Below are positions 32,395 to 58,648 of a stretch of 64,000 bases of DNA, piece after piece. The DNA is from Sphaerolaimus hirsutus (Eukaryota; Nematoda; Chromadorea; Monhysterida; Sphaerolaimidae): NCBI GenBank assembly GCA_964036195.1, contig OZ038453.1, forward strand, positions 3,673,469-3,737,468, written 5' to 3'. A model generated the notes under the pieces. The model saw only the letters and a list, made by a program, of their open reading frames with translations. It ran no database searches and was not told the DNA's origin. The position numbers and the translations under genes are program-made. Every line of letters begins with the position of its first letter. The stretch's first letter is position 1.

Positions 32395-33245
32395 GCAGTA
32401 TTCTCTCAGAAACTCAGCACATAATTTGTCAACTCCCATCAACTCATACCTAATTTGTCAACTCCCATCAACTCACACCTAATTTGCTAACTCCTGTCAA
32501 CTCAGCACCTAATTTGTTAACTTGTGTCAACTCATGCCTAATTTGTCAACTCCTGGCAACTCACACCTAATTTGTCAACTCCTGTTAGCTCAGCACCTAA
32601 TTTGTCTAATCCCATCAACTCACACCTAATTTGTCAACTCCCATCAACCCAGCACCTAATTTGTCAAACCCTATCAACTCATGTCGTATTTGATAAACTC
32701 CTATCAACTCAGTACATAATTTGTCAACTCCCATCAACTCACGTTTAATTTGTCAACTCCCGTCAACCCAGCACCTAATTTGTTAAATCCCATCAACTAG
32801 TGTCTTATTTGATAAACTCCCATCAACTCACGCCTAATTTGTCAATTCATGTAAACTCATGCCTTATTTGTCAACTGGTGTCAACTCACGCCCAATTTGT
32901 CAACTCCTATGAACTCCATACCCAATTTGTCAACTCCTATGAACTCAACACCTAATTTGTCAACTCCTATCAACTCAGCCGCTAATTTGTCTACTCATGT
33001 CAACTCATGCCTAATTTATCAATTTCTATCAACTCATGCCTAATTTGTCAACTCCCGTGAACTCACCAACTAATTTATAAAATCCTGTCAACTCAGCCCC
33101 TTATTTGTAAACTCCCATAAACTCAGCCCCTTTTTTGTAAAGTGCTGTAAACTCAGCCCATAATTTGTAAACTCAGGTCAACTCAGCCACTATTATGTAA
33201 ACTCCCATAAACTCAGCCCCCATAATTTGTAAACTCCTGTAATTC
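32395..33245. repeat. Minisatellite, about 30-bp unit, roughly 28 copies
   Basis: The unit resembles CACCTAATTTGTCAACTCC followed by TGTCAACTCAG. Copies differ at scattered positions and there is no constant-repeat/variable-spacer pattern. Confidence 0.88.
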
Positions 33246-34200: not shown

Positions 34201-34239
34201 TTACAAAATAAAGCTCCCAGTGAAATTTTTTTGACACCC

Positions 34240-35910
34240 TGTCAGATATTTTACGTTTTTACTAATTTTACTAGTTTCCGTTTTTACCACAAAAATACGC
34301 CACTCGTCGAATTTTGCCGCGGCAGAGAATTGTAAATTCCGGTCCCTTTGCGCTTCTAATTGCGTGCGTAATTAAATAAATGATTGTTTTTATGGTACGG
34401 GGATTTTACACGCAAATCAGGAACGGCGCCAGTACCCCTTGGGGTCCTGACAGTTCCTGAGGACGGACACGGCAACTTACCAATCCCTTTTCGTAATTGC
34501 AGCCGGCGGTTTACTTCGATTAACTGTTAATAAGCCGTAATTAAAGTAAAGCCGAAATTAATAAAATTCAAATTAAAATTCAAGCAGTTAGTATGCTTCA
34601 GGGGGACCAAGTTGGATTCACGGGAACTTTATTTAGCAATATAATCAGAGTCAATTTCACAATAGCTCAAGTGAGTCGTATAGCCTCTAGTGGGTGAAAA
34701 AATGTAAAATCAGCGCGTTTTATAATCACCAAAAATCTACCATAAGCGAAATGAATACTAAATCAAAGACACAACAATTAACCGTAATGAGCGAAATATA
34801 AGGCGAATTCAATGATCACTGGGAAACTGTTAACATAGCGTACAAGGCATAAGTAATTTAATTAAATGCGGGAAAAATAACTAATAAACGGGTGCAAACG
34901 TAAATTAAATCAAGCGTAAGGTAACTGTGATTATTCAATGACGTAATTAAAATACAAATTATCTCGTAGGGAAGTGTCGGAAGCTGGGTTTCTATTCAGA
35001 GGTTACGGTACAATTTAGAGCAGGTGGTGTGACACATGTTATCAACCTGCGCCCCTTTAGGTGAGAAATATTTTATAGCGCGCCCGACCAAGGCCACAGA
35101 AAGAACGCTCACTTGCGGGGGTTGTTCAAGGTTATTGCATTGCCGGGTAAGGGTTGGAACTTCGGGCCTGAACACACGCCACTAGACACTAGCACTTGCG
35201 AGTTCACCATTCACCCTGGGTGATAGGAATAATTAATTGGCACTGCTGTGCTCTTCACTGTAACTGTGCTCTGCATGTGTCTTGCAGTTGCATGCCGACA
35301 ATAATTGCCGTTTGCCACTTTTCCACCCATTACCTAGTCCTAAATAAAAATGCACTTGGTCGGGGAATTTTCTGAATGTTATCTTTCGGGGCGTCTAGGC
35401 GTTTAACAGAGTCAACACCTTTTAGCTTAACTAGAAACATTAAAAGCCTTTCTAAACCATTCCCAGACACTGCACCCTTTTGACCAAAAATGTAAGCTTG
35501 ATAAAACCTAAAAATTATAACATTCGAAAGTACATATTGGGAAATACAAAAAGAAAACGAAAGTAATCACTTAATTAACTCAAAATGCGGGTAACCTAAT
35601 TAGCTTAATTAATGAAACATGAAGTAAAAAGAAAAATTAGCATCACACGGGAAGTAATTACGTAATTAACGGAAAAGAAATAATTAATAAATTCATGGCC
35701 GCAGTAGTGTCCATTCGGGCGTACCGTCCTGGGGCTGCGGCTTCGTTGGCGGATTTGCAGTGCACAGCGAACCGCACGTTCACTGTGACTTCCCTGTGCA
35801 CCGCGGGCCGTCATTCGGTCACACATGGTCGTTCTCGAGTCGTCGGGGTGTCTGCACAGAATTGTCGTTACGTTTTTACGCATGATTAGCTAGCCATATT
35901 TCCACCTACA
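34240..35910 (-). repeat. 3' LTR of the 17.5-kb element
   Basis: It is 1,671 bp and matches 50117-51787 with one mismatch seen. On the minus strand it starts TGTAGGTGG and ends CTGACA. It has a possible polyadenylation signal AATAAA on the minus strand at 34628-34633. A GC-rich part at 35700-35870 stands out from the AT-rich remainder. Confidence 0.95.
34628..34633 (-). promoter_or_regulatory. Possible polyadenylation signal in the 3' LTR
   Basis: AATAAA on the minus strand lies downstream of two TATA-like boxes of the LTR, the position expected for transcript end formation. Motif only. Confidence 0.35.
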
Positions 35911-36486
35911 ATCCCACCAGCCATTAATTTTTTTTACCTCCGGGCTAAAAACGGCATGTTCAGAAAAAGTGTTTTGCGTCGTTTTTTTGTTATTCAAAAA
36001 TCATGCCTTCTCTACATTTTTCGGTGGACGGCTGTGGCAGTCACATGCCCTGGGGGTGCAAATATGGCTCGTCTTCATTTGAATTATGGCATCAGCTTTC
36101 TACCGTGCCGGCTTTTTGTGCTCGAAACTTCGAAATTTTGGTTCCCGCTCAGGGCTCAATGTGAGAAAAAGTTTTTTCTTTTTTGGAAACTAATTAATCG
36201 GATTACTAATCTGTGTTATTTCACAGCATCGTGCCACTATTGGATGGGCAGTTTGGGATCAACATTCAAGTTACCTGCTCGACCGACATGTCGCAGTCCG
36301 TGCGTGTGAAAATTGATCGTCGACAAGATTTTCTAATTGTTTTCATGGAATATTAACAAGTATGTTTTTTTTTAATTGCTGATTTTTTGTTACAGAGTTG
36401 TCTGTTTCTCCTGATGACGAAAGTTGTGCATAAATTATTACACTTTAAAATTTTTATAATTGGTTTAGGCCAAAAATTGCGTCGTA
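35911..36486 (-). other. Spacer between helicase gene and 3' LTR
   Basis: About 575 bases with no minus-strand frame of note. The stretch next to the LTR on the minus strand (GCTGGTGGGAT) is only partly purine, so the polypurine tract is weak or unusual. Confidence 0.5.
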
Positions 36487-39400
36487 TCAATTTTCACAAT
36501 TACCATTTTCCATGTGGTGTTCTACCTGTTGCGCTGGGGCTTCCTCCGGTGGCAGTGGGATGGCCTCGACCGCGTCGTGGGGCTCGGGCGGCGGCGAGGG
36601 GGGCTCGGCTACGTTCTGCAGTGCCATGGCCGCCATGTCGTTGCTAATGGGGGAGTATTCTTCATTAGGGCGGTAAACTGGCTCGACAACGGGCACCACT
36701 TCCTCCAATACCGGCACACCTTCCTCCCGCGCGTCTGCGGAGGAGTCAGAGCCCGCGGTGGCGGTTTCAATATCGGATAAACATTCCGCCTGCAGTTCTT
36801 CTTCAAGGGCCGGGTATCTATCCGGTCCGACTAGTTCTTTCAAGTCAGCCCGCGGGCGCCATTCCGGTGGCCAAAATCCCAACACGTTTCCCCAGATTTG
36901 GCCTGATTCGTAAGAGTAAATCCGGTCGGCTTTGTGCTCGACCGTCAGAAACCGGTGGAAAAAGGTTGACCACAACATGGTCTCGGCATTGGCCACCACG
37001 ATGCGCACACATTTGGCGCGGGAGGTGGCTACGTTTCCCCGGGGCAACTCCGCTACAAATCCAACTCTACCGTACGCCTTTTTGGGATCGGCATCCAGCT
37101 GGGCGGAGTCGGTTGGCGGGCTGCCGCGCACGCAGGAAATGATGACCACTTCCGCTTCACGGGCCTGTGCTTTGTCGGCAGTAATTACGCGGGTGGCCCA
37201 GTAGGCCGCGTCGTGTTCTGTATGGGCTACTAGTCGACTGATTAGGGCGCGCGCCTGCGCCGCATAAAAGCACACAATTAGCAAACTAGTGGGATCTGTG
37301 AGATCTGCCCAGGGCAGGGTGGGATCTTCTTTCACTGTGGCCACGAGGTAATCGTACAGGTGCAGGATGATGCGCAGCTCCTTCTTGTTGATAATGGACA
37401 TGCCCTCTTTTGATTCGCAGCCCTGGTGCACCAACGTTGATGACAGCATGACGCCATCCTCGAAGTCGCCAGGTGCGGGCAACATGGTGGCGCCGTGCGC
37501 GGCGGTGTCGTTGTAGGCGCGTAGCAGTCCGTTGTACGCCGCCACAGAGTTGGCCTGAATGAGCTGGCGATGCCCGCGGAACACTGTTTCCAAGTGAACC
37601 ACGGGACATAGTTGATATTGTGTGAGCCTATCAATGAGGGTGGGGTCGGGTTTCAGGACAGGCTCCACCCAGTCTTGCACGCGAATCATACGCGTCAGTT
37701 GTTTACTGTCTCCAAATAGAAGTAGCATGCCGTTCACTGGGAGCTGAGCCGCCTGAACCACGCTAATTACGGCAGCGTCAGACGCCAAAGACGCTTCGTC
37801 AATAATTACCGCACACGCAATCACACTTTTTATACGGGCGTCGTGGGCGGAGTCTAAAGTGACATGGATTTGACCGGGCTGCACCACTTCCAAGAACACC
37901 CGGTGCAGCCTGACCGTAGCCCTGACATATTTAGACAGCGCCCTACGCAGCACCTTACCCCAAAATCCCTGGTCAGCTAAACTAGCCTCACCAGCCCGGG
38001 CGCCCGCCACGCCTGCCTCGAAGTCATCGAATGGCTGCTCGTCTCCATCTTCGGCGGTAAGAAATGGCACCTGCTCGGTCAGCTGCGCGCGTATAACGGC
38101 ATCGTCCGTGCAGTTGTTGATAATTTCGTCCACCAGCTCGTAGTCCTTCTTGGCGCCGTCGTACTTTTCCAGCGCGGCCGTCCATTCGGGGCTGAGGCGG
38201 ACAATGTTGTGGCCGGTTCGCTGTGCTAGGGTGTGCAGGGTTGGCAATTGGGTCGCGGGGGTGGTATTGTAAGTGGGGTCAGTTTCCCACATGGGGCTCA
38301 AAACGCGCACCGGAAATGCCGCTCTTAATTTAAAAAATTCTTCAAAACCCTCCAGTTTTTGCATTTCAGAAAATGGCGTATCGGCCATAGCGGTCCATTT
38401 CGCGCGCTCCCGCAACAAAACTTCCAAAGCCCCAAAAATATCCCGCTGCCCTAATTTATTCAGATTGGTCAGGGCCCTGCGCGCGCCTTCGTCGGCCGCC
38501 GAGTTGACCGTGCACGTGATGAGCGTCGAATGGTATTTGGCGTTCGGCTGCTTGTCCGATGGCAATTCGGAGCCCGCGCGCACCCTGGGTCTCGAGTTAT
38601 AATAATTATAGCCGCGCGAACACACATACGCCAGTTGATTTTGTGTGGTCGTCTTCCCGGACCCGAAAGGCGAGTCACACATAATCAAAAGGGGTTTGCG
38701 CATTTGCACGGCTGTGATCACAGCTCCTAAAACTTCTACCTGCCCCTGCTGCGGCAAAAACTCACCTAATTTGGCCTGAATCATTTGTTCGTTTTTTCCC
38801 CTGAACAATGATTCGTACAACTCATTAGCCTCGCGGCTAATTAGCGCCCAGTCAGTTTCGTCATCCAGCAGACGCAAATTCAATATCACAGCTAATTGGA
38901 TTTGCGCCTCCAGGGTGAGTACTTTTGACCCCTGAACCACTTTTGGCACCCAGCCGACCGGCGCTTTGTTCAGGGCAGCTTGCAGTGATCGCATGGTTCG
39001 GTCATAATTGGGCGAGTCGTTTGAGCCGCGCACCATGTATCTTCCACTCTCCAGAGTACGGGGCAACGCTGACTGCGACGCCGCCATGTCCAATTTCGCA
39101 CGCAGCATTGTAGTGGTTGGCTCTGATTCCACACTGGTAATTCTGACTGATAGATTGGGGCTGCCCGCCGCTGGTTTGTCTTCGTCTGGTCTGGCCAGCA
39201 CCAAGCTCAACACTGACATGGGCGTCGCCTGGTTCAACAGCTGTGTCTGCGTATTCACCTGCTCCAGCAGACGAACGCGCTGCTCTTCTGGTCCTTCGAA
39301 AGTGTCAGCTTGCAATTCTTCTGGGTCCGGGCGGCGCACCATAATGTCGCATGCAGTGCCCTGCGGCGTGTGTTCCCAGGACACATGCGCGCACACATCC

Positions 39401-40458
39401 GTTGCGCGTTTCGCCCGAAACCGCAAGAATGACTCGTTATAGCAGTGGGCCGCTGCTAAAATACTCAATTTATACCTGAGAAATGCGTCCATGTTGTCTC
39501 GGTTCTCTGTATCCGGCTGGATGCCCGAATTACTGATGTCCTCGGCCGTGGCGACCTGCAACCCGTACGCATGGCCGTAGAATTCGTCGCCAAACACGTC
39601 CAAATCATTCAAGTCGTGATACTCGACGTGGGCCAGCCCCAACTGTCCAGCACTCAAATTTTCCACTCTGCTGTCACTCACATATTCTCTGTGTAGAATG
39701 ACCAACTTTTCCGGCCCGGCATCGCCCCGCTCCGCCGCGCCCAGCGGTTCCAGATTTTTGTAATTCGACGGCGTGAAGGCCGCTCGCAGCCGCGCCGTTT
39801 TCCAGTCGCTCGTATAGGGCTGGTAGCCGGAAGTGTCGCCGCGCGTCAATGTACGTGCCGCTTGAGTAACGCGCCGCGTGCCCTGCGTACTCACTACCAC
39901 CGGGGCGGCAACGTTTAAGGGGCACTTTGTCTGATTACCCCATATCGCGACGCCGGTGAACTCCCAGTACCTTGGATTTTCTATTTTCTGTGCGATTGCG
40001 GTCGCCGAGAAACGCATTCCGTGGCGCACCAGGGGCAGAAACATCGAAGGGTGTTGTTTCTGAATTCTCGCGCACAAATCCACCAGCTGGGTGGTCCGTT
40101 TGTCCCTGGCCGCCTTGGCCCGCTTATTTGAATAGTAAAAATACGGATAGGCCTCATCCGCATTCACCCACTGCTCATTTTCGCTGAGTATCGCCATCGT
40201 TTGCTCAGAGATTCTCACATGGCACTGATACTCAACATGCCCGTCGGCGCCCGAGTCAATATACACTCGATCTACCCAGCCTTCGAATTTCCCTCTGCTG
40301 GGATAGATTTCCAGTCCATTTTGCATCTGCTGCACGCGGTAGAGTTGCCGCGGGGGGATGGTTCCGCCGCCGCAGGCACCATGTGTATTTGTCTCCTTGG
40401 ATTTAATGGGTGGGGCGTCTGCACCTTCAAATGGGCGTTTGCGAGAAGCCGAAGCCAT
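36487..40458 (-). CDS. Superfamily 1 (UPF1-like) helicase carried by the retrotransposon
   Basis: An uninterrupted 1,323-codon ORF starting with ATG. Helicase motifs appear in order: motif I GSGKTT at 599-604, motif II DEAS at 887-890, motif III GDSKQL at 916-921, FRGH near 960, motif V (QAREAEVVIIS) near 1090, and motif VI NVATSRAK at 1142-1149. This set fits the UPF1/DNA2-like branch of SF1, whose members unwind RNA or DNA with ATP. Residues 1-590 match nothing I recognise. The C-terminal 120 residues are acidic and proline-rich. The ORF lies between pol and the 3' LTR, the usual place of an envelope gene, 228 bases after pol, so it probably needs a spliced mRNA. Its intactness suggests selection. 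The role (for example remodelling the element's RNA or escaping host RNA decay) is inference. Confidence 0.85.
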   Translation of the reverse strand: MASASRKRPFEGADAPPIKSKETNTHGACGGGTIPPRQLYRVQQMQNGLEIYPSRGKFEGWVDRVYIDSGADGHVEYQCHVRISEQTMAILSENEQWVNADEAYPYFYYSNKRAKAARDKRTTQLVDLCARIQKQHPSMFLPLVRHGMRFSATAIAQKIENPRYWEFTGVAIWGNQTKCPLNVAAPVVVSTQGTRRVTQAARTLTRGDTSGYQPYTSDWKTARLRAAFTPSNYKNLEPLGAAERGDAGPEKLVILHREYVSDSRVENLSAGQLGLAHVEYHDLNDLDVFGDEFYGHAYGLQVATAEDISNSGIQPDTENRDNMDAFLRYKLSILAAAHCYNESFLRFRAKRATDVCAHVSWEHTPQGTACDIMVRRPDPEELQADTFEGPEEQRVRLLEQVNTQTQLLNQATPMSVLSLVLARPDEDKPAAGSPNLSVRITSVESEPTTTMLRAKLDMAASQSALPRTLESGRYMVRGSNDSPNYDRTMRSLQAALNKAPVGWVPKVVQGSKVLTLEAQIQLAVILNLRLLDDETDWALISREANELYESLFRGKNEQMIQAKLGEFLPQQGQVEVLGAVITAVQMRKPLLIMCDSPFGSGKTTTQNQLAYVCSRGYNYYNSRPRVRAGSELPSDKQPNAKYHSTLITCTVNSAADEGARRALTNLNKLGQRDIFGALEVLLRERAKWTAMADTPFSEMQKLEGFEEFFKLRAAFPVRVLSPMWETDPTYNTTPATQLPTLHTLAQRTGHNIVRLSPEWTAALEKYDGAKKDYELVDEIINNCTDDAVIRAQLTEQVPFLTAEDGDEQPFDDFEAGVAGARAGEASLADQGFWGKVLRRALSKYVRATVRLHRVFLEVVQPGQIHVTLDSAHDARIKSVIACAVIIDEASLASDAAVISVVQAAQLPVNGMLLLFGDSKQLTRMIRVQDWVEPVLKPDPTLIDRLTQYQLCPVVHLETVFRGHRQLIQANSVAAYNGLLRAYNDTAAHGATMLPAPGDFEDGVMLSSTLVHQGCESKEGMSIINKKELRIILHLYDYLVATVKEDPTLPWADLTDPTSLLIVCFYAAQARALISRLVAHTEHDAAYWATRVITADKAQAREAEVVIISCVRGSPPTDSAQLDADPKKAYGRVGFVAELPRGNVATSRAKCVRIVVANAETMLWSTFFHRFLTVEHKADRIYSYESGQIWGNVLGFWPPEWRPRADLKELVGPDRYPALEEELQAECLSDIETATAGSDSSADAREEGVPVLEEVVPVVEPVYRPNEEYSPISNDMAAMALQNVAEPPSPPPEPHDAVEAIPLPPEEAPAQQVEHHMENGNCEN

Positions 40459-40686
40459 TATAATTATAACAATGTGAAAAAATAATTAATTGCGAAGGTT
40501 TTAATGAACAGGGAAAGTAATAAAAACTCGTGCGGTCCAGTTGCCCGTGGGCAAAAGGGGTGCACGAGCTTCCTAAAAACACACGCACACTTTCACACAC
40601 ACTTCATACCTGTTATACCTGGTTCCGTGTTGCTTGACGCGACGGCGATGGTCGTAAAGGCTAATTAATCAGCTAATTAATCAATT

Positions 40687-43446
40687 TTAGTCGTCGCCGT
40701 ATAATTCACTGTAAGAAGGGGGAATTAAGTATTCACTGGTTGCCTTGCAGCGGTCTGCATGAACTACATAGATCTTCTTATTAATATTGTTGAACAAAGT
40801 CACTAATGGGTGGGCATAATCAATGCACTCATACGGGCCGATAAAGCGAGGCGCGAATTTCTTACTAGGGCCCGTCAACTGAGTAATACGCGGCGTGTAT
40901 ACGCGTACCGCTTGCCCGCGTTGCACATTCAATCGGCGCGCACGGCGATTGGCGTAAAATTGTTCCTTTTGCTGCGCCTTTGCTAAAGCGGTGTGCGCCG
41001 CTTCGCGTGCTGTGGTCAGACGCGCGCCTAATTCATTTATAAGGGCGCGCTTATGCGGCAATGAGGGCAATGCCTTGGTGTCAGGGGGAGGCTCGATCAT
41101 ACGCTCCCACATGGACGCAGCAGGCTTGCCAAATAGCAACGCATAGGGTGTGGTTTGCAAGGAAGGGTGTTTCGATGTATTGTACGCATGTACAGCGGCG
41201 CCTAAGTGTATGTCCCAATCGTCATGTGTACGATTTACGTAGTGTGATACTATTTCCATCAGAACACCATTCCTACGTTCCACCATTCCGTTGCTCTTGG
41301 GGGTGTACGCAAATGATGTATGTTGGGTCGCGTTCAAATATTGTAAAAGCTTGGCAAAAGTGCCCTCGGTAAAGCTAGGGGCGTTATCACTGAGTATAAT
41401 GGCCGGCACACTAAATATAGGCAAAATGTGCAACAAAAATGCAAATGATACGGTGTCTTGTTTTATGTCGGGAACGGGCACGGCAATTCCAAAACGTGTG
41501 CACTGATCAACAAATACTAACACATGTCGGTTTCTGCGTTTTGTGGTTAGTAAAGGTCCTATTGCGTCTACCGCTATCACATCACCTGGCCTTTTGGCTA
41601 CCTGGCGGCACACCATTTGTGTTCGCATTGCCGCTCTGAGACCTTTCTTGGCGTTGCACGAAGGGCAGGTGGCAACCCAGCCCGCACTTTCTGGCCGCAT
41701 TCCTGGAAACCACGCGAATTCCTGTAACCTTTCAAATGTTTTTATTATTCCCAAATGGCCCGCCGTGGGGTGATTGTGAGCTAATTCTAACACGAATGGA
41801 ACTAATTCCGATGGGATACATACTGGGTCGTATAATTGTATACCTGGTATCTGGGACGTTCCCGCTTGGCGACGTAACAAACCGTATTGGTCAATAAAAT
41901 ACGGCGCGGCGCTGTAAAAATTATCTGCGCGACACACTTCTATAGTCGTGGCTATGTACGGTTCTTCTGCTTGTAGTCGCTTCAATTTGTCAACTGAAGT
42001 CATGGGAGGTAGCGCCATGATTGTACTGCGCTTGGTTACACTCGTTAAACCCGGAGCAACTTCATTTCCGGCTCCTGAACCACCAGCCATTGTTCCAGTT
42101 CCAGGCGCTTCCGCATTCCGCTGTCGCTCTCGCAGCCCGGGTGACTCCGCCTCTTTTCGCCCGCGCGTCCGGTCGCTGATTGGTCGTAGTAACTCCGCCT
42201 CCTCGTTTACGCCGCTTCGTTCGCTGATTGGCTGATACGCCGCCCTGCTCGCCGCAGCTACCGTAACCTGCTTATCGTGCGGGATAGCGATTTCACGGCA
42301 CGTAACCTGTGCAAACTGCTCAAAAGCCTCATCCAGGTCCTTTTTCTCGTCGAATATCACTGGCGCGTCTTGTCTTCTAGATAGTGCATCTGCTAATTCG
42401 TTGCTTTTTCCCCTCAAGTGCTTGAACGTGATCTGGTACGGCGTAATTGCTAAAGCGAACTTGTGTAGCATGGCGTGCGGGGTAGTCTCTAAATTAGGAT
42501 TCTTTACCCATGAAATACTCTTGGCGTCGGTCCAGACTTCAAAGGGCCGTCCCGCCAGATAACAATGCCAATTACGTATACTTTCGTAGATTGCACATGC
42601 TTCCAATGAAATCGCTGGCCATTTGCTTTGGGTTGCACCTAGCTTCCGGATGTAAAAGGCACATGCATGTAGCCTTTTCTCGTCCTTTGCTCGTTGTGCT
42701 AGCACTCCTGCAACAGCAATTTTAGAGGCGTCCGTGATAATTATAAACATGCGTTTAGGATCGGGAAATTGCAAACATGGGCTTCCTAACAATACTTCCT
42801 TGAGCTTATGAAAAGCTTCCAGTGCTTTGGGTTTTGCTGTCAAATCCACCGGGGTGTCACTATTGTAATTTTCTCTTGGTCCCGTACGCGTGAGATTTGA
42901 CAAAGGTACGGCTAACTCTGCGCATCTGTGAATCATGCGTCTAAAAAATCCTATAGCTCCCAGAAAACCCTTAACCTCTTTTACGGTAGTGGGTACCGGC
43001 CAGTCCTGAATTATGTGACGTTTGTCATCCGGTACGCACACGCCGTCACGGCCAATCATAAATCCTAGAAAACGTACAGCGGTGACGCGTGCGAAAAAAC
43101 ACTTTTTTGGACTAATTTTGAAATTATTTCTAATTAATCTTTCCAACACCTGCCCTATGTCGTATAAATGTGTTTCCCAGGTTGCACTATAAATCAACAA
43201 GTCGTCGATGTATAATAACACATTTCGATGTATTAAGCCGGCCATAGCTAATTCAAAGCAGCGCTGCGCCAAACTAGGTGAGCATTTTAATCCCATTGGT
43301 AAACGTTTCAGTTGAAATTGTCCAAAAATGTTTCTAAATGACGTAATGTGTCGATCATCCGGATGCAAAGCAATGTTATAGAAAGCTTGGTTTATGTCGG
43401 CACTGCTAAAAATACTTGCAGCTACATAAGGATTCGACTGTTTCAT
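40687..43446 (-). CDS. pol: Pol, downstream part: RT, RNase H, integrase
   Basis: 919 codons. The printed ATG start is not a real start, because homology to RT begins before it and continues from the upstream frame. RT active site YIDD is at 79-82. The RNase H-type region follows, with ITDAS near 234 and the WTDAKS block near 310. The integrase zinc-binding H-H-C-C block is at about 552-595. The catalytic D (VDAIG) is near 626, and the later D (SDNAP) and E (VERRNG) near 685 and 721 are separated by exactly 35 residues. A GPY motif (IGPYE) is near the C-terminus; no chromodomain was seen. It replicates and integrates the element. It is one nucleotide out of frame with the upstream ORF: the junction lies in a run of five A (T on the coding strand) at 43408-43412, inside the RT domain. 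Confidence 0.93.
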   Translation of the reverse strand: MKQSNPYVAASIFSSADINQAFYNIALHPDDRHITSFRNIFGQFQLKRLPMGLKCSPSLAQRCFELAMAGLIHRNVLLYIDDLLIYSATWETHLYDIGQVLERLIRNNFKISPKKCFFARVTAVRFLGFMIGRDGVCVPDDKRHIIQDWPVPTTVKEVKGFLGAIGFFRRMIHRCAELAVPLSNLTRTGPRENYNSDTPVDLTAKPKALEAFHKLKEVLLGSPCLQFPDPKRMFIIITDASKIAVAGVLAQRAKDEKRLHACAFYIRKLGATQSKWPAISLEACAIYESIRNWHCYLAGRPFEVWTDAKSISWVKNPNLETTPHAMLHKFALAITPYQITFKHLRGKSNELADALSRRQDAPVIFDEKKDLDEAFEQFAQVTCREIAIPHDKQVTVAAASRAAYQPISERSGVNEEAELLRPISDRTRGRKEAESPGLRERQRNAEAPGTGTMAGGSGAGNEVAPGLTSVTKRSTIMALPPMTSVDKLKRLQAEEPYIATTIEVCRADNFYSAAPYFIDQYGLLRRQAGTSQIPGIQLYDPVCIPSELVPFVLELAHNHPTAGHLGIIKTFERLQEFAWFPGMRPESAGWVATCPSCNAKKGLRAAMRTQMVCRQVAKRPGDVIAVDAIGPLLTTKRRNRHVLVFVDQCTRFGIAVPVPDIKQDTVSFAFLLHILPIFSVPAIILSDNAPSFTEGTFAKLLQYLNATQHTSFAYTPKSNGMVERRNGVLMEIVSHYVNRTHDDWDIHLGAAVHAYNTSKHPSLQTTPYALLFGKPAASMWERMIEPPPDTKALPSLPHKRALINELGARLTTAREAAHTALAKAQQKEQFYANRRARRLNVQRGQAVRVYTPRITQLTGPSKKFAPRFIGPYECIDYAHPLVTLFNNINKKIYVVHADRCKATSEYLIPPSYSELYGDD

Positions 43447-46400
43447 CTAAGCGGGGTAATGGGAATTGGGGAGCGTGCAAAACAGCGTTCAGGCGTCTGT
43501 AATCAATTACCATCCGCTTTGCTCCATCCGGTTTGGATACCACCAGCGTGGGGGCACAATACGGGCTCGTACTGGGTTCCACGATGTCGTGCTCGATGAG
43601 GCATCTCAAATGATTTTCTAAGTATTGCTGATCATCCAGACTCAACCGGTACATTCTGCACGCAATTGGTTTTTTGTCCACTAATTGCAGCCGGTAGTCC
43701 ACTAATTCGCTGTAGCCGATGTCATACTTATGTCGGGCAAAAGCTTCTTTGTACTGCAAAATCACCTTTTTCAGTTCCTCTCTGCGTTTGTCCGTCAAAG
43801 TTTCTGGCACGGTGAATTCCATCACGTGTCCATCTGGGCATGCAACTTGCAATGGGGGTCCTAATTTGTCTTCGGCTACTTTGGGGGGAGGTTCAGTCGC
43901 TTGAACTTGTCGACACACATCTCTGTCATAACACTGCTTCACCCATTCAGCAGGGGGGTCTCCAGGTTTCACCTTCAGCACGCAGTCCACTGGTTCGACC
44001 ACTGCAATGCGCTGTCCTACCTGTAGCACTACGGGCTGGTTTCGTACATTTGCACATCTCACCTGAAACACGGGGGCACTGGTTTCATACGCCGCTGAAG
44101 CAGCCATAACTCCACAGCGTTCGCCTACCGTATCCAATCCCATGACCGTAAATAACTTTTCATCCATGGGGGCAGATAATTTCGCCGTCACTAGCGCTTC
44201 ATGTCTAGCCAGAATCTCTATTTTTTCGTTCACAATGGCGTAAATTCTGCGCTGCTGCACTTCCGGGTCGGGGTTATCAAATGGAATTATTGCGTTAGCC
44301 GTAGGGATTCGTAGTTCCCTTGCAGGTAGGTCTACTACCATGTGCTGCAGGACATCTGCGCCAATTAGAATTTCACCTGCTAATCCGTTCACTGCCTGAA
44401 ACACGATCCCGAAAGTGTGGTTTCCCATTGTTACCGGTATTTCCATTTGTCCCAGTACCAGAAGTTTCGAATCTGCTGCACACCTGAGGGCTCCAATAGG
44501 CGAGACTTCATCATGCTTAGTAGCTTTCTCCTTGTGTCGCATCAGCACGTCTCTGTTGCATAATGACCGCATGGCGCCGGTGTCCAGTAGACATCTCCGA
44601 TATTCTCTCCCATCGATGGTTATGGTAATGGATGGGCTGTAATACACGTGCACAATTTCTTCACGTCGATTGGCTACTTGATGTATGTTATCTCTTTCCT
44701 CCGTCGAAAAAGTGATCATGCACACCGATTCTTCTTCCAGATCGCATTTTCTGTTGATACTGTATTGTATAGCGGGAAAACGACGCGCGCCCGTGAGTGC
44801 GGGCATGCCACTTGGCATTCCCACGCACGGGTTAATTACCGTTCTTACCTTTACCTGTTCGCTAGGGCGGTCCTCAGCCAATTCGACAATGATATTGGAC
44901 TTTTCTTCTGTCTTTGGTCGCCTTTTGATTTTTTCCTTTGCCCTGTTCACCAAAGTCACGGCCATTTCCGGCGCTGCAGCCATGAGCGCGGCTAGTAAAT
45001 ATTGCATGGTGACTAGAGCACATATCAGGTAAATCCATACTTGCAGCCAGGTGCGCCAAGTGTCAAAATCCCACCATCCCAGCGCCAATACCGATTTTGC
45101 CAAAGTTCGATGCCTTTGCATGTGTGATTCCACCTTCGGCTCCGCCCCCTGCGTAATTTGCCGCACGATTGAATATGCATGCCATACGTCGTTTAGGGTG
45201 GTCGTCGGCAATAGTTCTGACAAGTTGTACATGGTTGTGGCGGCAAAAATCTGATGATGCACATCCTTAACCTTTTCCTGTTGCCATTTCTGCGGGAAAC
45301 TGTGTGTGTTATACATAGGTAAATGTTCCAGGCCGCCTACTTCCGGTAGATATTTGTACCACTGTTCATTTAACATTACCACACGATTGTGAGCATTGGT
45401 GCATGATCCCGGGATCGCTTGAAAGTGCAAAATGTTTGTCAACCGATTCATGTGCAACGTCACATTTTGCCCGTGTACACTAACTTGCACAGGTACTGTT
45501 TCATAGCATTCTGGAGACTTTTCCTCCTTCATGATCTCGTATGTTTTTACCGCGAAGCATTTGTGAACCAAAAATCCGTCCGGCGCGGGTTTGGCAATTA
45601 TTTCGTTATCATTCATGTACCAGCGGGCTGTCGTAGTGGCGTGTTCACTCATGGCCAGGCGCACAAATTCTTGGAAGTGTTGCACGTTCTTGCAGGTGGC
45701 TACGGCCTGTGCACGCATGGTTTGTTCTGCTGTTTCGTATACCGCCTGCATGCTGGCTGCTAATTGGCCTGCGCTCACTATTCCCAGCGTGGGTCGACCT
45801 TGTGCTCGTTTTTGTCTGACGCTTCGAATCACTGCCTTTTCAAATGGGGCCACTACTATATCCTGATCCGATTTCCATAGTCTGATGCCGCATGATTCAA
45901 CCTCTTCGTGTGCTCTGAAAGACAGTGATAGTGTATGATCATCGGCTAACCAGATATCCTGTCTAATGCGTCCATGCATTTCACGCCATTTTTCATAAGG
46001 GCATTCCGCCTTCGGGTTCGGTTTCCATGTTAATTGGCTGCCGTCTTCTAGCGTACATGCACCCATTTCATAATTGCACTTACTAACCTCACCCAGCGTG
46101 CTTTGCATGGTGTTGGCTCCATATCTCATTCGTACTTCCCCTCGAAACAGCCCACAGTGTGGTGTCGTTTCACTCACCCATTTGCAACAGTACAATCCAT
46201 GTCCTGAGTAGCTAACATTGGTGGGGTATTGGGTGTCCCATGCGTTGTCCAGGTCACTCACAGGGGTCATGGGCCCATTGTTGCATTTGTGATATTTAAT
46301 CATGCCTTCGCACTCGGCGGCGCCCACAGATCGGGGGTTAGAATCAAACTTTTCCAGCGTGACGTCGCCCCAGAAGTTCTGATACGTCCTTGCCGTTCTG

Positions 46401-49400
46401 GTAGAGGCCACACACCTGTGCGCTGCCGCACGATATTCTACCATATTTCGCTTGTATATTGTCAGTGTCAATTTTCGTGGCCGTTCTAATGACGCCGTAG
46501 TGTCAACAATAGCCGTGCAATTTGGTAGAGGGGGGTACGTGTATAAATCGTAGTGATCTGTCAAGTCACTGCAGAGCAGTGGAAACGAGGGCATGGTAGT
46601 CGCGCCCGCGCCCGGCAATAAAGCTAATCCCATTATAATTAACCCAACTGCCAATACAAAAAACAACGACTGTGCGACCTGGGGCATGTAGGGGGGTTCT
46701 GAGTATGCGCGTGGCGCGGGGCGCACCCCTTCCTCAGTAGACAGAAAACCCATATACCTGTCTATCTGGTTGCTGGAGTCAGTACGCGGCGGCAGTGCGG
46801 CCGGCGTGGCGTACAAAAACGGGTCCAAACTGATGTTCATGAGCACGTCCAAAGGCACCTCAGTCAGCGTGTCCGAGTGGTCGTCTGCAGGGCAATTAGG
46901 CCACAACGTACAGTTCGTTTCTCTCAAATCATGCATTCCGATCCTGCGTAGGAAGGCCAGCCAGGTAGTTCGAAATAGGTAACCTTTTTCAGTTCGCATG
47001 TATGCCCATGGTTTGATCCAGAATTCCCGCTCCTGCGCGAGCACATGCATTCCCGTAGTGCGCTGCTGCTCTTCGGGTGACTCTGGAACCAGTTCGTCAG
47101 GTTCCTCATCTTCTAATTCCAAGCCTTGCATCACAGGGATTAACTTATTAACGGGACGTATCATCATGCAGCGATCATCTTCACGCACATGCATGGTCAT
47201 TCCAGTCGTACTGGTCACTCGCGTGGGGTTCAGCGACTCTACGTGGGGGTTGCTTACCTGTACCGGTTGCATGTTATATTGTTGCATGCGCCCATCCGGT
47301 CCCATAGCCATCCAATTAGCTGGCGGCGTTTGATATGCCATCATCTGCGGTTGCATGTTCATATCGCCAGCTCTCTGTACCGTCTGCGCCGGCTGCACAG
47401 GCATCGGCTGAGCTGGTTGCCACTGCGGATATGCGTATTGCATGGGCATCATACCTGGTTGCATCGCTTGGGCTTGATCATTTCTCTGATAGCCACCACG
47501 TTGTCCTCCGCCGCGCCCACGTCCATTTCCTCTGGATGCTCCGCCGCCGCGGCTCCTTTTGAAATACTGTTCCCTTTGTTCTGGAGTTAGTTTGGGACAC
47601 TCATATCTGATGTGCTCTTCAGAGCCACATTCCCAACATCCTTTGTCAAATTTTCGTGGGGGCAATTTAGGGGGGTCCCTATTCAATCCCAAAAGTTTAC
47701 CTTCCAACGCGCCCAGTTGCGCTAATTTCTTCGCTATCTCTTGGTGCACAGAGTCGAATTTGGCAACACTCTCAGTCATTTTCTGTTCCATTGTCTCTAA
47801 CGTCTTGTCGGCCTGGGACGGCAGTCCAGCCATGGCGGGCATGTTTAGCGCCATCAACCTGTCCATTACCTTGTCTGTAGCGCTGGCAACCACATCCTGT
47901 TTGGATTTTTCTCCCTTATTCTGGCTCTGTTCTGCTTCCAGAAAGCTCTCTTGTGCGCGTGCGTTGTCAACCATCTCTTTCCAAGTGATAGACGCCGTGA
48001 CAGGTACATTGCGCCGAATTTCATTTCTCAGTCCTCCATGAAATTTTATCATGCACGTGTCACCTCGTTTTTCATGACCCATGCCTGGATAGGCGCGTTT
48101 TATCAATTTTTCCAAACGTACCGCCCATTCCAGTACCGACTCATCTGCGCCCTGTCGCGTCTCAAAAATCTCTCTCTGTGCGTGATGTTTGTCATTTGGA
48201 TTTTCATAGAATTTCTCCAGGGCTTGCATCATGTCCTTGTAGTTCAGGTCACGCAGTTCTCTGTATCGGGTGTTGAAAATGGCTCTGGCACTGCCTTTCA
48301 AAAACAATTTTACCAGCGGCTTCCGCTCCTGTAGTTTTATGCGCAGCGCATCACATACCGTGTCCCAGCTCCTTCTCCAGTCCCTGAAACCCTCATTTGG
48401 CTTGCCGCGAAAATATCCACATTGTTGTGCTAGGGCCGTAATGACTGCCGCATTGCTTTGTTCTAATTGCCAATTTTGTCCCGGGTCCGTGGGTCGCGCC
48501 ACTTCAGATGCAGCTGACGAGCTCCTGGAGGATGCTGGCGAACGGGATCGAGCGCGCCGCTGTGTAACAGTTCTCACCTGGTTTGTTCCAGCTGCCGACG
48601 GGGGCGCCGCTGGTGCCGTTGATGACTGTAAAGGCGCTGCTTGACCACTGGTCAGCACTATCGGCTGCTGGCCACTGGCCGGTGAATTTCCTCCCAGCGT
48701 CGCGTTCTGATTTTGTAGGGCTTGATTATGCTGCTGGTACGCAGTCGTCAGGTCAACTATATCATCGCCATGTAAGTTGTGGTGCGCTTCGAATTCCTGC
48801 AAATAATGTTCCACCCTAGGTACCTCGGCGACTGGGTCACTTCCCCATAAATTCATAGCAATTTTAATTAGTGTCACCATACGCAAGTCCCCTGGTTCAC
48901 CATTCTGTGAGAATGCGCCAACCGGTCTCGCCTGACTCATCATGTTTGCCCATTTCTTTGCGGCTTCACATGCCTTTTGGGGGGTCCATTGTGCACAGGA
49001 TGGCGTTGTTTGCACCGGGTCCAGGTCCATTATGGTAGCTTGGTAAATTAAATTCGTATTAGTGACCTTCGCGTATCTGTCTTCCAGCGCCGGGGCCGCC
49101 GTCTGGTTCGCGCCATTGTTTGTCATTCTGCTTGCGGGGCTGCTAATAGTTATCACGGGGGGGTTACTTGAAAATTCGGTCTTAATTAACTGGCGTCTAG
49201 CCTTTGCAGTTGCGCTCTGCGATCTCGACTGGTCGCTCGATAAGTTCCGACTGCTGTTGCCTGACACGTCTCTCGGCGTCGAAGTGCTCTTCGGGGGGCT
49301 TAACTGCAGCGCCGGGGAAGTGTCTCCACTCTGCGCCGCTGTCTCCAACAGTTCTGCTACGGTATTTTCAATCACGGGAAATTGATCTGCAGTAGCTCCA

Positions 49401-50002
49401 AGCTCAGCTGCAATCAAAGGATAATCACGTTGAATCGACGGCTGCCCTAGAGGCTCGCTGTCACCAACGTATCCGTCTGAACCAACTTCAGAACCCGATC
49501 GCACTCCAGGCGATATGGATGAGCTGCCCGCGCTCCAACCCAATGTCCTCCGAAGCTTAGACCACTTACCTGTCTTTCCTGCTTCCTTTCCTGCAGCTTG
49601 TCTGCTTGTCCCAGGCACCTCTTCAGCTTCTGCGCTGGACGTTAGCTGCCGTGCCGCTGTCGGTACAGCTGGCGTCTTCCACTGACTAAAACTGTCTGGC
49701 GCAGGCCCTGCGCCTTCAACCGTTGATAACCTGATTACCGGTGTATCCTCAGCTGTCTGTCCAGACCAGCGTTGACTTTCACTCTCCTCTAGCGCTTCCG
49801 GCGCTTCTGTTTCAGGGTTAACCGAATCGTTCGACTCACTGTCTCCTGCTTGACTCTCAGCTGCAGCAAGTTGTGCGTCCACTTCTTGCCCAGCCTTTTG
49901 TTGTCGCGCGCGCCTTTGTGCTTGTTTTTGCTTCTCCAACGCAGCGTGCCAAACTTGTTCTATGGTGTCCCCTTGTAAGCTTGCTGGCCCCCTCGATCTC
50001 AA
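43406..50002 (-). CDS. gag: Gag - envelope-like glycoprotein - protease - RT start polyprotein
   Basis: Residues are counted from 50002, which is TTG, not ATG. Residues 1-500 are Ser/Gln/Ala-rich. The Gag core is at about 530-650. A CCHC zinc knuckle is at 789-802, followed by an RG-rich RNA-binding stretch. A hydrophobic segment at about 1109-1132 ends in AGA, like a signal peptide. It is followed by a Cys-rich ectodomain with four N-glycosylation sequons, a furin-type RQKR at about 1395-1398 and a second membrane segment at about 1652-1676, so it is built like a cleaved viral envelope protein. The layout recalls chuvirus/mononegavirus-type glycoproteins (low confidence). The retropepsin DTGA is at 1807-1810. 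RT begins at about 2090 and stops at 43406 in KYF. The frame is open upstream to 50078 but has no ATG before 49126. Proteolytic separation of the parts is assumed. Confidence 0.88.
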   Translation of the reverse strand: MRSRGPASLQGDTIEQVWHAALEKQKQAQRRARQQKAGQEVDAQLAAAESQAGDSESNDSVNPETEAPEALEESESQRWSGQTAEDTPVIRLSTVEGAGPAPDSFSQWKTPAVPTAARQLTSSAEAEEVPGTSRQAAGKEAGKTGKWSKLRRTLGWSAGSSSISPGVRSGSEVGSDGYVGDSEPLGQPSIQRDYPLIAAELGATADQFPVIENTVAELLETAAQSGDTSPALQLSPPKSTSTPRDVSGNSSRNLSSDQSRSQSATAKARRQLIKTEFSSNPPVITISSPASRMTNNGANQTAAPALEDRYAKVTNTNLIYQATIMDLDPVQTTPSCAQWTPQKACEAAKKWANMMSQARPVGAFSQNGEPGDLRMVTLIKIAMNLWGSDPVAEVPRVEHYLQEFEAHHNLHGDDIVDLTTAYQQHNQALQNQNATLGGNSPASGQQPIVLTSGQAAPLQSSTAPAAPPSAAGTNQVRTVTQRRARSRSPASSRSSSAASEVARPTDPGQNWQLEQSNAAVITALAQQCGYFRGKPNEGFRDWRRSWDTVCDALRIKLQERKPLVKLFLKGSARAIFNTRYRELRDLNYKDMMQALEKFYENPNDKHHAQREIFETRQGADESVLEWAVRLEKLIKRAYPGMGHEKRGDTCMIKFHGGLRNEIRRNVPVTASITWKEMVDNARAQESFLEAEQSQNKGEKSKQDVVASATDKVMDRLMALNMPAMAGLPSQADKTLETMEQKMTESVAKFDSVHQEIAKKLAQLGALEGKLLGLNRDPPKLPPRKFDKGCWECGSEEHIRYECPKLTPEQREQYFKRSRGGGASRGNGRGRGGGQRGGYQRNDQAQAMQPGMMPMQYAYPQWQPAQPMPVQPAQTVQRAGDMNMQPQMMAYQTPPANWMAMGPDGRMQQYNMQPVQVSNPHVESLNPTRVTSTTGMTMHVREDDRCMMIRPVNKLIPVMQGLELEDEEPDELVPESPEEQQRTTGMHVLAQEREFWIKPWAYMRTEKGYLFRTTWLAFLRRIGMHDLRETNCTLWPNCPADDHSDTLTEVPLDVLMNISLDPFLYATPAALPPRTDSSNQIDRYMGFLSTEEGVRPAPRAYSEPPYMPQVAQSLFFVLAVGLIIMGLALLPGAGATTMPSFPLLCSDLTDHYDLYTYPPLPNCTAIVDTTASLERPRKLTLTIYKRNMVEYRAAAHRCVASTRTARTYQNFWGDVTLEKFDSNPRSVGAAECEGMIKYHKCNNGPMTPVSDLDNAWDTQYPTNVSYSGHGLYCCKWVSETTPHCGLFRGEVRMRYGANTMQSTLGEVSKCNYEMGACTLEDGSQLTWKPNPKAECPYEKWREMHGRIRQDIWLADDHTLSLSFRAHEEVESCGIRLWKSDQDIVVAPFEKAVIRSVRQKRAQGRPTLGIVSAGQLAASMQAVYETAEQTMRAQAVATCKNVQHFQEFVRLAMSEHATTTARWYMNDNEIIAKPAPDGFLVHKCFAVKTYEIMKEEKSPECYETVPVQVSVHGQNVTLHMNRLTNILHFQAIPGSCTNAHNRVVMLNEQWYKYLPEVGGLEHLPMYNTHSFPQKWQQEKVKDVHHQIFAATTMYNLSELLPTTTLNDVWHAYSIVRQITQGAEPKVESHMQRHRTLAKSVLALGWWDFDTWRTWLQVWIYLICALVTMQYLLAALMAAAPEMAVTLVNRAKEKIKRRPKTEEKSNIIVELAEDRPSEQVKVRTVINPCVGMPSGMPALTGARRFPAIQYSINRKCDLEEESVCMITFSTEERDNIHQVANRREEIVHVYYSPSITITIDGREYRRCLLDTGAMRSLCNRDVLMRHKEKATKHDEVSPIGALRCAADSKLLVLGQMEIPVTMGNHTFGIVFQAVNGLAGEILIGADVLQHMVVDLPARELRIPTANAIIPFDNPDPEVQQRRIYAIVNEKIEILARHEALVTAKLSAPMDEKLFTVMGLDTVGERCGVMAASAAYETSAPVFQVRCANVRNQPVVLQVGQRIAVVEPVDCVLKVKPGDPPAEWVKQCYDRDVCRQVQATEPPPKVAEDKLGPPLQVACPDGHVMEFTVPETLTDKRREELKKVILQYKEAFARHKYDIGYSELVDYRLQLVDKKPIACRMYRLSLDDQQYLENHLRCLIEHDIVEPSTSPYCAPTLVVSKPDGAKRMVIDYRRLNAVLHAPQFPLPRLDETVESLCSCKYF

Positions 50003-50096
50003 TTCCCTTTGGGGTGATTCGTTATCCGTGAAGCCGTTTTTGTAGAGGCGTTGATCAGGCGCCCCAGACAGAAAACTTTATGGCTTGCTTAGGAAA

Positions 50097-50114
50097 CCAC
50101 TCGCTACGCTACCA
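50097..50114 (-). other. Candidate primer-binding site
   Basis: On the minus strand, two bases after the 5' LTR, the sequence begins TGGTAGCGTAGCG. Its complement ends in CCA, as a tRNA 3' end would. I do not recognise which tRNA. Confidence 0.55.
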
Positions 50115-50116
50115 GT

Positions 50117-51787
50117 TGTCAGATATTTTACGTTTTTACTAATTTTACTAGTTTCCGTTTTTACCACAAAAATACGCCACTCGTCGAATTTTGCCGCGGC
50201 AGAGAATTGTAAATTCCGGTCCCTTTGCGCTTCTAATTGCGTGCGTAATTAAATAAATGATTGTTTTTATGGTACGGGGATTTTACACGCAAATCAGGAA
50301 CGGCGCCAGTACCCCTTGGGGTCCTGACAGTTCCTGAGGACGGACACGGCAACTTACCAATCCCTTTTCGTAATTGCAGCCGGCGGTTTACTTCGATTAA
50401 CTGTTAATAAGCCGTAATTAAAGTAAAGCCGAAATTAATAAAATTCAAATTAAAATTCAAGCAGTTAGTATGCTTCAGGGGGACCAAGTTGGATTCACGG
50501 GAACTTTATTTAGCAATATAATCAGAGTCAATTTCACAATAGCTCAAGTGAGTCGTATAGCCTCTAGTGGGTGAAAAAATGTAAAATCAGCGCGTTTTAT
50601 AATCACCAAAAATCTACCATAAGCAAAATGAATACTAAATCAAAGACACAACAATTAACCGTAATGAGCGAAATATAAGGCGAATTCAATGATCACTGGG
50701 AAACTGTTAACATAGCGTACAAGGCATAAGTAATTTAATTAAATGCGGGAAAAATAACTAATAAACGGGTGCAAACGTAAATTAAATCAAGCGTAAGGTA
50801 ACTGTGATTATTCAATGACGTAATTAAAATACAAATTATCTCGTAGGGAAGTGTCGGAAGCTGGGTTTCTATTCAGAGGTTACGGTACAATTTAGAGCAG
50901 GTGGTGTGACACATGTTATCAACCTGCGCCCCTTTAGGTGAGAAATATTTTATAGCGCGCCCGACCAAGGCCACAGAAAGAACGCTCACTTGCGGGGGTT
51001 GTTCAAGGTTATTGCATTGCCGGGTAAGGGTTGGAACTTCGGGCCTGAACACACGCCACTAGACACTAGCACTTGCGAGTTCACCATTCACCCTGGGTGA
51101 TAGGAATAATTAATTGGCACTGCTGTGCTCTTCACTGTAACTGTGCTCTGCATGTGTCTTGCAGTTGCATGCCGACAATAATTGCCGTTTGCCACTTTTC
51201 CACCCATTACCTAGTCCTAAATAAAAATGCACTTGGTCGGGGAATTTTCTGAATGTTATCTTTCGGGGCGTCTAGGCGTTTAACAGAGTCAACACCTTTT
51301 AGCTTAACTAGAAACATTAAAAGCCTTTCTAAACCATTCCCAGACACTGCACCCTTTTGACCAAAAATGTAAGCTTGATAAAACCTAAAAATTATAACAT
51401 TCGAAAGTACATATTGGGAAATACAAAAAGAAAACGAAAGTAATCACTTAATTAACTCAAAATGCGGGTAACCTAATTAGCTTAATTAATGAAACATGAA
51501 GTAAAAAGAAAAATTAGCATCACACGGGAAGTAATTACGTAATTAACGGAAAAGAAATAATTAATAAATTCATGGCCGCAGTAGTGTCCATTCGGGCGTA
51601 CCGTCCTGGGGCTGCGGCTTCGTTGGCGGATTTGCAGTGCACAGCGAACCGCACGTTCACTGTGACTTCCCTGTGCACCGCGGGCCGTCATTCGGTCACA
51701 CATGGTCGTTCTCGAGTCGTCGGGGTGTCTGCACAGAATTGTCGTTACGTTTTTACGCATGATTAGCTAGCCATATTTCCACCTACA
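50117..51787 (-). repeat. 5' LTR of the 17.5-kb element
   Basis: It carries the promoter for the minus-strand transcript. It is 1,671 bp. A 92-codon frame (51482-51760, with an identical copy at 35605-35883 in the 3' LTR) starts close to the LTR edge in its GC-rich part. I treat it as non-coding for now, because both copies are identical simply through LTR identity. Confidence 0.95.
50948..50954 (-). promoter_or_regulatory. Candidate TATA box in the 5' LTR
   Basis: TATAAAA on the minus strand in a GCGC context. A second TATAAAA lies at 50595-50601. Either could mark the start of R. Motif only. Confidence 0.35.
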
Positions 51788-51791
51788 ACCC

Positions 51792-58636: not shown

Positions 58637-58648
58637 AATTTCTCCAAT

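Follow-up and report, generated by a model that had tools for sequence, protein, structure and literature searches.

A young, high-copy Ty3/gypsy-type retroelement of the nematode Sphaerolaimus hirsutus with an envelope-like domain upstream of the protease, a conserved frame break inside reverse transcriptase and a helicase gene

We analysed a 64,000-nucleotide stretch of the Sphaerolaimus hirsutus genome (GenBank assembly GCA_964036195.1, contig OZ038453.1, positions 3,673,469 to 3,737,468; hereafter the window), which carries a complete long terminal repeat (LTR) element of 17.5 kb on its minus strand (34240-51787). The element reads in the order Gag, zinc knuckle, membrane-anchored glycoprotein (Env), protease (PR), reverse transcriptase-RNase H-integrase (RT-RH-IN) and superfamily 1 (SF1) helicase, and is best labelled a young, high-copy, envelope-bearing, retrovirus-like element of the Ty3/gypsy type. 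Its order is conserved across many copies, every module is under purifying selection, and RT is divided between two frames at a conserved break. Judged from sequence, the identity and order of the modules and a functional split RT are quite probable. We give about even weight to the wider reading that the element represents a lineage with a distinct plan, in which an internal, membrane-threaded Env is made one to one with Gag, +1 recoding inside RT sets the Gag/Pol ratio and the element itself supplies an SF1 helicase for its long genome, in a host genome holding at least three families with Env inside the polyprotein.

The LTRs of the element begin with TG and end with CA on the element strand and enclose an internal region of 14.2 kb (Table 1). 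A 4-bp target-site duplication (TSD) was present in all three LTR pairs examined, the window's included, the other two being AATG and CTAA. The leader after the 5' LTR is conserved and contains TGG. In the second open reading frame (ORF2), the RVT_1, RNase H, H2C2 and rve matches all exceeded the Pfam cut-offs. The original prediction, made from the window alone, had described paired 1,671-bp LTRs with a 4-bp TSD, three large minus-strand ORFs, a recent insertion, a gypsy-type pol order, an envelope-like part between zinc knuckle and protease and a helicase after integrase. All of these were recovered: the LTRs differ by one mismatch, the TSD is ACCC, the ORFs encode 2,198, 919 and 1,323 aa, Pfam placed PR-RT-RH-IN in that order, Pfam and two hydrophobic segments marked the envelope-like part, and AAA_12 matched ORF3. 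The proposed division of the frames into Gag-Env-PR and Pol stood as to domain order and failed as to the boundary, since ORF1 and ORF2 meet inside RT in every copy examined.

We searched the host assembly (348.5 Mb, 762 contigs) for further copies; the counts of places are of best-scored candidates and are lower bounds. The search returned at least 40 LTR places (among 661 candidates), at least 65 Env places at ≥98% identity (among 1,233), at least 65 helicase places at ≥98% identity (among 512) and at least 120 RT places at ≥97% identity (among 1,506), and the family was spread over several small contigs and 11 large ones; ten of the latter measure 23.9-34.0 Mb, and the eleventh (C14) extends to at least 24.9 Mb. 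The mitochondrial contig C762 (14,754 bp) has a cox1 with 14 internal TGA codons that yields a 514-aa COX1 under genetic code 5; its best PDB matches are apparently animal COX1 entries, and the host fits an invertebrate animal. Between the best 65 Env and the best 65 helicase places, 34 same-strand pairs were spaced 7,836-7,898 bp. Three further pairs departed from this pattern: one had a spacing of 23,769 bp, one had the order reversed and one had its members on opposite strands. Two copies offset by 15,877 bp (G000:C6:7571700-7597511), apparently in tandem with a shared LTR, explain the 23,769-bp pair and one reverse-order pair. LTR-pair spacing was 15,846-15,891 bp in 10 of 13 pairs (15,877 in the window) and longer in three (17,467, 17,812 and 28,380 bp), and none of the 13 was more than 31 bp shorter than the window's. 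Copies lacking the envelope-like or helicase region at the same junctions had been named beforehand as the sign of a one-off chimera or misassembly, an explanation suggested by the unusual order; the near-constant spacing of the 34 pairs, the absence among the 13 LTR pairs of any more than 31 bp shorter and the spread over contigs refute it, leaving it a negligible probability. Substitutions between the LTRs of one element numbered 1 (window), 4 and 3 in three pairs, compared with 43-65 between copies (four comparisons), a pattern suggestive of several source lineages that separated long ago and each inserted recently.

Selection on each domain, a test that the original prediction had proposed, was assessed by the ratio of nonsynonymous to synonymous differences (pN/pS). 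Across 30 copies, Env had a mean pN of 0.0063 and pS of 0.136 (pN/pS 0.046). In the same copies, 13 intervals of ORF1 from capsid to RT gave 0.014-0.109, the capsid interval (aa 595-700) being at 0.014, and the start of ORF2 gave 0.013. Among 11 sequences, the helicase region (all without stops) was at 0.036-0.052, the integrase part at 0.044-0.052 and the part of ORF2 between RNase H and integrase at 0.136. For each of two regions we also used four sequences chosen as nearest to the window's LTR and not picked by protein. In these, the N-terminal part of ORF1 gave 0.20 and 0.24 where its other two frames gave 1.24-1.88; for the C-terminal part of ORF3 the values were 0.086 and 0.19. These results demonstrated purifying selection on all modules (pN/pS 0.01-0.24), with Env and helicase constrained about as strongly as pol.

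The break in RT, which the original prediction had not described, lies where ORF1 ends in KYF-stop at TTT-TAG-C, and RT resumes in ORF2 from the +1 frame. It sits just before what we take to be the first catalytic Asp of RT. All 21 copies compared had an identical junction, although adjacent synonymous positions varied. No RT frame longer than 921 aa was found at the 120 RT places, and no frame longer than 2,233 aa at the 65 Env places. We compared the RT halves with 36 proteins, 34 of them from the database and the others pieces of families B and C (described below). The ORF1 half had matches in 18 and the ORF2 half in 35. Wherever both matched (18 proteins), the halves abutted with an offset of -3 to 0, which fits a shift at TTT-TAG-C and counts against both an intron and the loss of a segment. 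Programmed +1 frameshifting is recognised by a slippery codon beside a stop, conservation across copies and selection in both frames. All three are present here, and the break is best read as putative programmed +1 frameshifting. To our knowledge, the frameshift or stop of LTR retroviruses and elements lies at gag/pol.

The window also holds a second, unrelated gypsy copy (56294-62137, minus strand) with an in-frame stop inside RT that looks like ordinary decay. Among 104 scored relatives of this copy, 37 had frames of 1,850-2,128 aa, and two of these 37 held a stop inside the match; RT breaks are therefore not universal in the host assembly. The stop of this copy, which falls in the corresponding part of RT, could favour a different account of the focal break, namely a defect fixed in a source copy, with the family mobilised in trans by other elements and no programmed recoding. 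Trans-mobilised defective families exist in general, and a stimulatory RNA structure was not found after the break. However, the RT halves, protease and integrase are selected in diverged copies (pN/pS 0.013-0.052), for which a defective family would have no need, the site is invariant amid varying synonymous positions, and the halves abut without loss. In addition, the 37 of 104 second-gypsy places with long frames stand against none of 120 focal RT places with an unbroken frame. We consider a fixed defect quite improbable and retain programmed frameshifting as the preferred reading of the break.

Just two segments of ORF1, at residues 1113 and 1659, exceeded a Kyte-Doolittle value of 1.5, and they bound the envelope-like part. 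Pfam Monjiviricetes_fusion, the sole Pfam match of the Env piece, was located at ORF1 aa 1297-1555 (E 3.4e-6), and it matched 27 of the 27 Env copies scanned (best E 6.7e-8), this set being the 30 copies of the selection analysis minus three with a stop (L027, L028 and L030).

Related glycoproteins occur elsewhere in the same genome, beyond what the original prediction had covered. A search of the host genome with PF24664 gave 68 scored matches out of 1,557 candidates, and each of the 68 exceeded the cut-off. They did not coincide with any of the 65 focal Env places, and 12 lay in frames of at least 5,000 aa. Three families were followed from them. Family A (L082, G000:C7:2972300-2982200) is a BEL/Pao element with a single 2,900-aa frame in the order RT, Pao peptidase, H2C2, DUF5641 and then Env, the fetched part excluding the Gag end. 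Its Env matched Monjiviricetes_fusion at E 9.1e-17 and stands at the canonical place after integrase. Family B (L083/L084, G000:C1:20653791-20674738) is a 20.9-kb LTR element with one open frame of 5,844 aa. The frame starts with Gag and CCHC, continues with some 2,700 aa that no Pfam family matched, and then encodes Env, followed by PR-RT-RH-IN. A 598-bp repeat (C1:20653791-20654388) has a 100% identical second copy after the ORF, and the pair encloses the 20.9 kb. The family B Env, when split across L083/L084, gave pieces below cut-offs (Glycoprotein_B E 5.3e-7; Monjiviricetes_fusion E 4.9e-5), and uncut it scored 56.6 bits, over the cut-off. Six of the 68 PF24664 matches lay in frames of 5,676-5,844 aa, and family B DNA matches adjoin five of these six. 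Family C (L085/L086, G000:C1:17073700-17093500) has a 6,806-aa frame with Env before PR, RT, RNase H and IN; its Env scored 57.8 bits and matched that of family A at E 8e-22, and a recognisable Gag was not found in this frame. Over protease and pol, family C shares 66% identity with family B. Env thus precedes PR-RT-RH-IN in three families (focal, B and C), with the split RT and the helicase seen in the focal family only. Together with a BEL family whose related Env stands at the usual place, the three form a natural series for the origin of the order.

The helicase core of ORF3 contains four motifs in order (GSGKTT, DEAS, GDSKQL and NVATSRAK), which we presume to be helicase motifs. ORF3 matched the NCBIfam IGHMBP2 family at E 2.4e-14, below the cut-off. 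One weak match to a generic helicase was found among 7,987 scored protein-database candidates, and the focal helicase had no match in the fetched pieces of families A, B and C. IMG/VR, scanned with pieces of the helicase, Env, RT and Gag, gave no confirmed match, and PHROGs gave one weak match, to a family of no known function. The helicase might possibly act in RNA export, in evading nonsense-mediated decay or as an unwinding activity in reverse transcription.

The element could be expressed as follows. Genomic RNA would be translated into a Gag-Env-protease polyprotein ending inside RT at the slippery TTT-TAG-C, where a minority of ribosomes would shift +1 and append RT-RNase H-integrase. 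The two hydrophobic segments would thread Env through the membrane, with Gag on one side of it and protease and Pol on the other, both cytosolic, and the ectodomain outside; Env would thereby be made one to one with Gag and be tethered at the assembly site. Signal-peptidase or furin-type cuts and cuts by the element protease would then free Env, and spread from cell to cell might follow. ORF3 would supply the element's own SF1 helicase, possibly for its very long RNA. We regard these details of expression and maturation as somewhat favoured, with less assurance than the anatomy.

Several results weigh against this reading. The Monjiviricetes_fusion score was 25.8 bits in whole ORF1, under the 27-bit cut-off, and 27.1 bits (E 1.4e-6) for the Env piece alone, a weak match at the same cut-off. 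Env homologs were absent among 7,999 scored protein-database candidates, a PDB search with the Env alignment gave no match (best E 0.62), and a single-sequence Env fold was unusable (mean pLDDT 35.7). Stops were present in 6 of 65 Env places and in 3 of the 30 copies of the selection set, of which two others (L023 and L025) had about 450-520 alignment columns unlike the window copy. Most selection sets were drawn from best protein matches, which biases them to low pN. Stable RNA structure was not found downstream of the shift site (z +0.90), a clean polypurine tract was not found by eye in the window element, and the ORF1 frame lacks an in-frame ATG in its first 292 codons, before residue 293.

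The weak score and the empty PDB and database searches would suit a tethering or lumenal membrane domain of some other kind, with no fusion envelope, and the position of the domain falls outside the description in the International Committee on Taxonomy of Viruses (ICTV) profile of Metaviridae (PMC7879559; this and the other sources cited are drawn on in part). This alternative is unlikely, given that all 27 copies matched Monjiviricetes_fusion and that the layout of signal and anchor, the sequons and the RQKR motif are present. Moreover, the focal Env matched the family A Env by direct blastp (22% identity, E 6e-6), which itself has the far stronger Monjiviricetes_fusion match at a canonical place. 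A fusion envelope is therefore the reading we keep.

The start of ORF1 bears on how Env is made. About 317 ORF1 codons (49127-50077, minus strand) have no in-frame ATG and are yet under in-frame purifying selection, with frame-0 pN/pS of 0.20 compared with 1.24 and 1.38 in the other frames (four copies), which suggests non-AUG initiation or unrecognised splicing. Since a spliced mRNA is the normal source of Env in retroviruses (PMC10309623), the focal Env could also be expressed from a spliced subgenomic RNA, its in-frame place being incidental, and the ATG-less start hints in that direction. Against this, each of the three Env-inside families has Env in frame with protease, and two of them have a recognised Gag in that frame as well. 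We hold a spliced Env to be possible but doubtful, and continue to favour its production within the polyprotein.

Table 1. Features of the element and its flanks (positions in the window; aa positions are those of the respective ORF product)
Feature	Position	Strand	Details
5' LTR	50117..51787	-	1,671 bp; TGTAGG...CTGACA on element strand; 1 mismatch vs 3' LTR
3' LTR	34240..35910	-	1,671 bp; 1 mismatch vs 5' LTR
TSD left, ACCC (+ strand)	34236..34239	.	flanks 3' LTR
TSD right, ACCC (+ strand)	51788..51791	.	flanks 5' LTR
Presumed primer-binding site	50099..50116	-	directly after 5' LTR; identical in 4 aligned copies; putative assignment
ORF1: Gag, zinc knuckle, Env, protease, N-terminal RT	43406..50002	-	2,198 aa from first TTG; frame open to 50077
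Gag capsid region, aa 564-643	48074..48313	-	Pfam Retrotrans_gag, E 1.1e-5, over cut-off
CCHC zinc knuckle, aa 788-804	47591..47641	-	Pfam zf-CCHC, E 0.02, below cut-off
First hydrophobic segment, presumed Env signal/anchor, aa 1113-1131	46610..46666	-	Kyte-Doolittle 2.55
Env ectodomain (predicted), ~aa 1132-1658	45029..46609	-	16 Cys and 4 N-glycosylation sequons in aa 1135-1640
RQKR, possible furin-type cleavage site, aa 1396-1399	45806..45817	-	sole RX[KR]R of ORF1; invariant in 27 copies
Second hydrophobic segment, presumed Env membrane anchor, aa 1659-1677	44972..45028	-	Kyte-Doolittle 2.07
Aspartic protease, aa 1793-1883	44354..44626	-	Pfam Asp_protease_2, E 0.067, below cut-off; DTG at 1807
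TTT-TAG-C at ORF1 stop inside RT, candidate +1 frameshift site	43405..43411	-	invariant in 21/21 copies
ORF2: rest of RT (YIDD), RNase H, integrase (H2C2 and DDE-type core)	40687..43446	-	919 aa; Pfam RVT_1, RT_RNaseH, Integrase_H2C2, rve
ORF3: SF1 (Upf1/IGHMBP2-like) helicase protein	36487..40458	-	1,323 aa; Pfam AAA_12, E 4.9e-25
Helicase core of ORF3, aa 540-1220	36799..38841	-	GSGKTT 599, DEAS 887, GDSKQL 916, NVATSRAK 1142, in order

Long tandem-repeat arrays lie near the element at 32411-33238 and 14568-15862, with units of 30 bp and 12/26 bp.

We placed the element by its Pol, which gave 33 matches among 7,999 scored protein-database candidates, at 23-34% identity. RT trees were built without GyDB/Repbase reference clades, and rows not covering the region were dropped. 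In a tree of 29 rows, the one partner of the focal RT was P0033 (support 89/80, below the support mark, on a long, unsure branch), and the focal RT lay outside a well-supported eight-row clade holding all seven chromodomain-bearing matches. In a 28-row tree with families A, B and C added and P0033 left out, the focal RT had no partner. This later tree and the approximately unbiased (AU) test were also made without three other long-branch rows, P0018, P0029 and P0031, and the grouping of focal, B and C as one RT clade was neither supported nor rejected (p-AU 0.435). The new lineage suggested by the original prediction was thus not supported as a separate phylogenetic group by these trees.

In the compared parts of the literature, the element shares with Metaviridae two LTRs around an internal region (14.2 kb here, 3 to >15 kb in the family), a Gag with capsid (over cut-off) and CCHC (below cut-off) and the PR-RT-RH-IN order, with a weak protease match (PMC7879559). 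It differs from them in the Env before protease, the RT split between frames and the helicase gene after integrase; the ICTV profile describes Env, where present, as encoded downstream of integrase (PMC7879559). A glycoprotein of the chuvirus/Monjiviricetes type is also carried by Anakin, a BEL-Pao element (PMC7642597), although the focal scores are weak, and Peptidase_A17 and DUF5641, which mark Anakin and Belpaoviridae, are absent from the focal Pfam matches; family A is the Anakin-like one. Roo, Tas and Cer-7 have their envelope-like protein downstream of the polyprotein (PMC7642597), and in the described LTR retroviruses and Env-bearing gypsy and BEL elements compared, Env follows integrase (PMC7879559, PMC7642597).

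Other systems share single traits. Errantivirus (Drosophila gypsy) likewise joins a Ty3/gypsy-type pol to an envelope, but its Env is F-type, baculovirus-like and encoded by a third ORF, whereas the focal Env is Monjiviricetes-type and lies in ORF1 (PMC12992720). Additional env-like ORFs of LTR elements have been described upstream or downstream of gag-pol, so that an env-like ORF is not always 3', as here; those ORFs stand outside gag-pol and not in frame between nucleocapsid and protease (PMC8220671). The LTR elements of bdelloid rotifers have also captured extra ORFs, including a paramyxovirus-like Env, but those described in the compared part encode Env, a GDSL esterase or a DEDDy exonuclease and lie downstream of pol; a helicase is named once in the same source (PMC5408684). 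Cer1 of C. elegans resembles the focal element as a gypsy-type element with an extra protein region (PMC10309623). Troyka is comparable as a deep, virus-like LTR lineage of animals; identity with it was rejected on its 3-bp TSD and CG...CG ends, compared with the focal 4-bp TSD and TG...CA (PMC12440569). The order Gag-Env-PR-RT-IN-helicase was not found in the literature searched, a partial search in which work on Env-carrying retrotransposons of metazoans is incompletely covered.

This element opens three questions to testing: how an Env domain within a polyprotein can cross the membrane and mature, whether the supply of Env can be coupled to that of Gag, and whether retroelements can host helicases of their own. 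With its Env upstream of protease in the frame of Gag, its break inside RT and its added helicase, it departs from the described elements with which we compared it.

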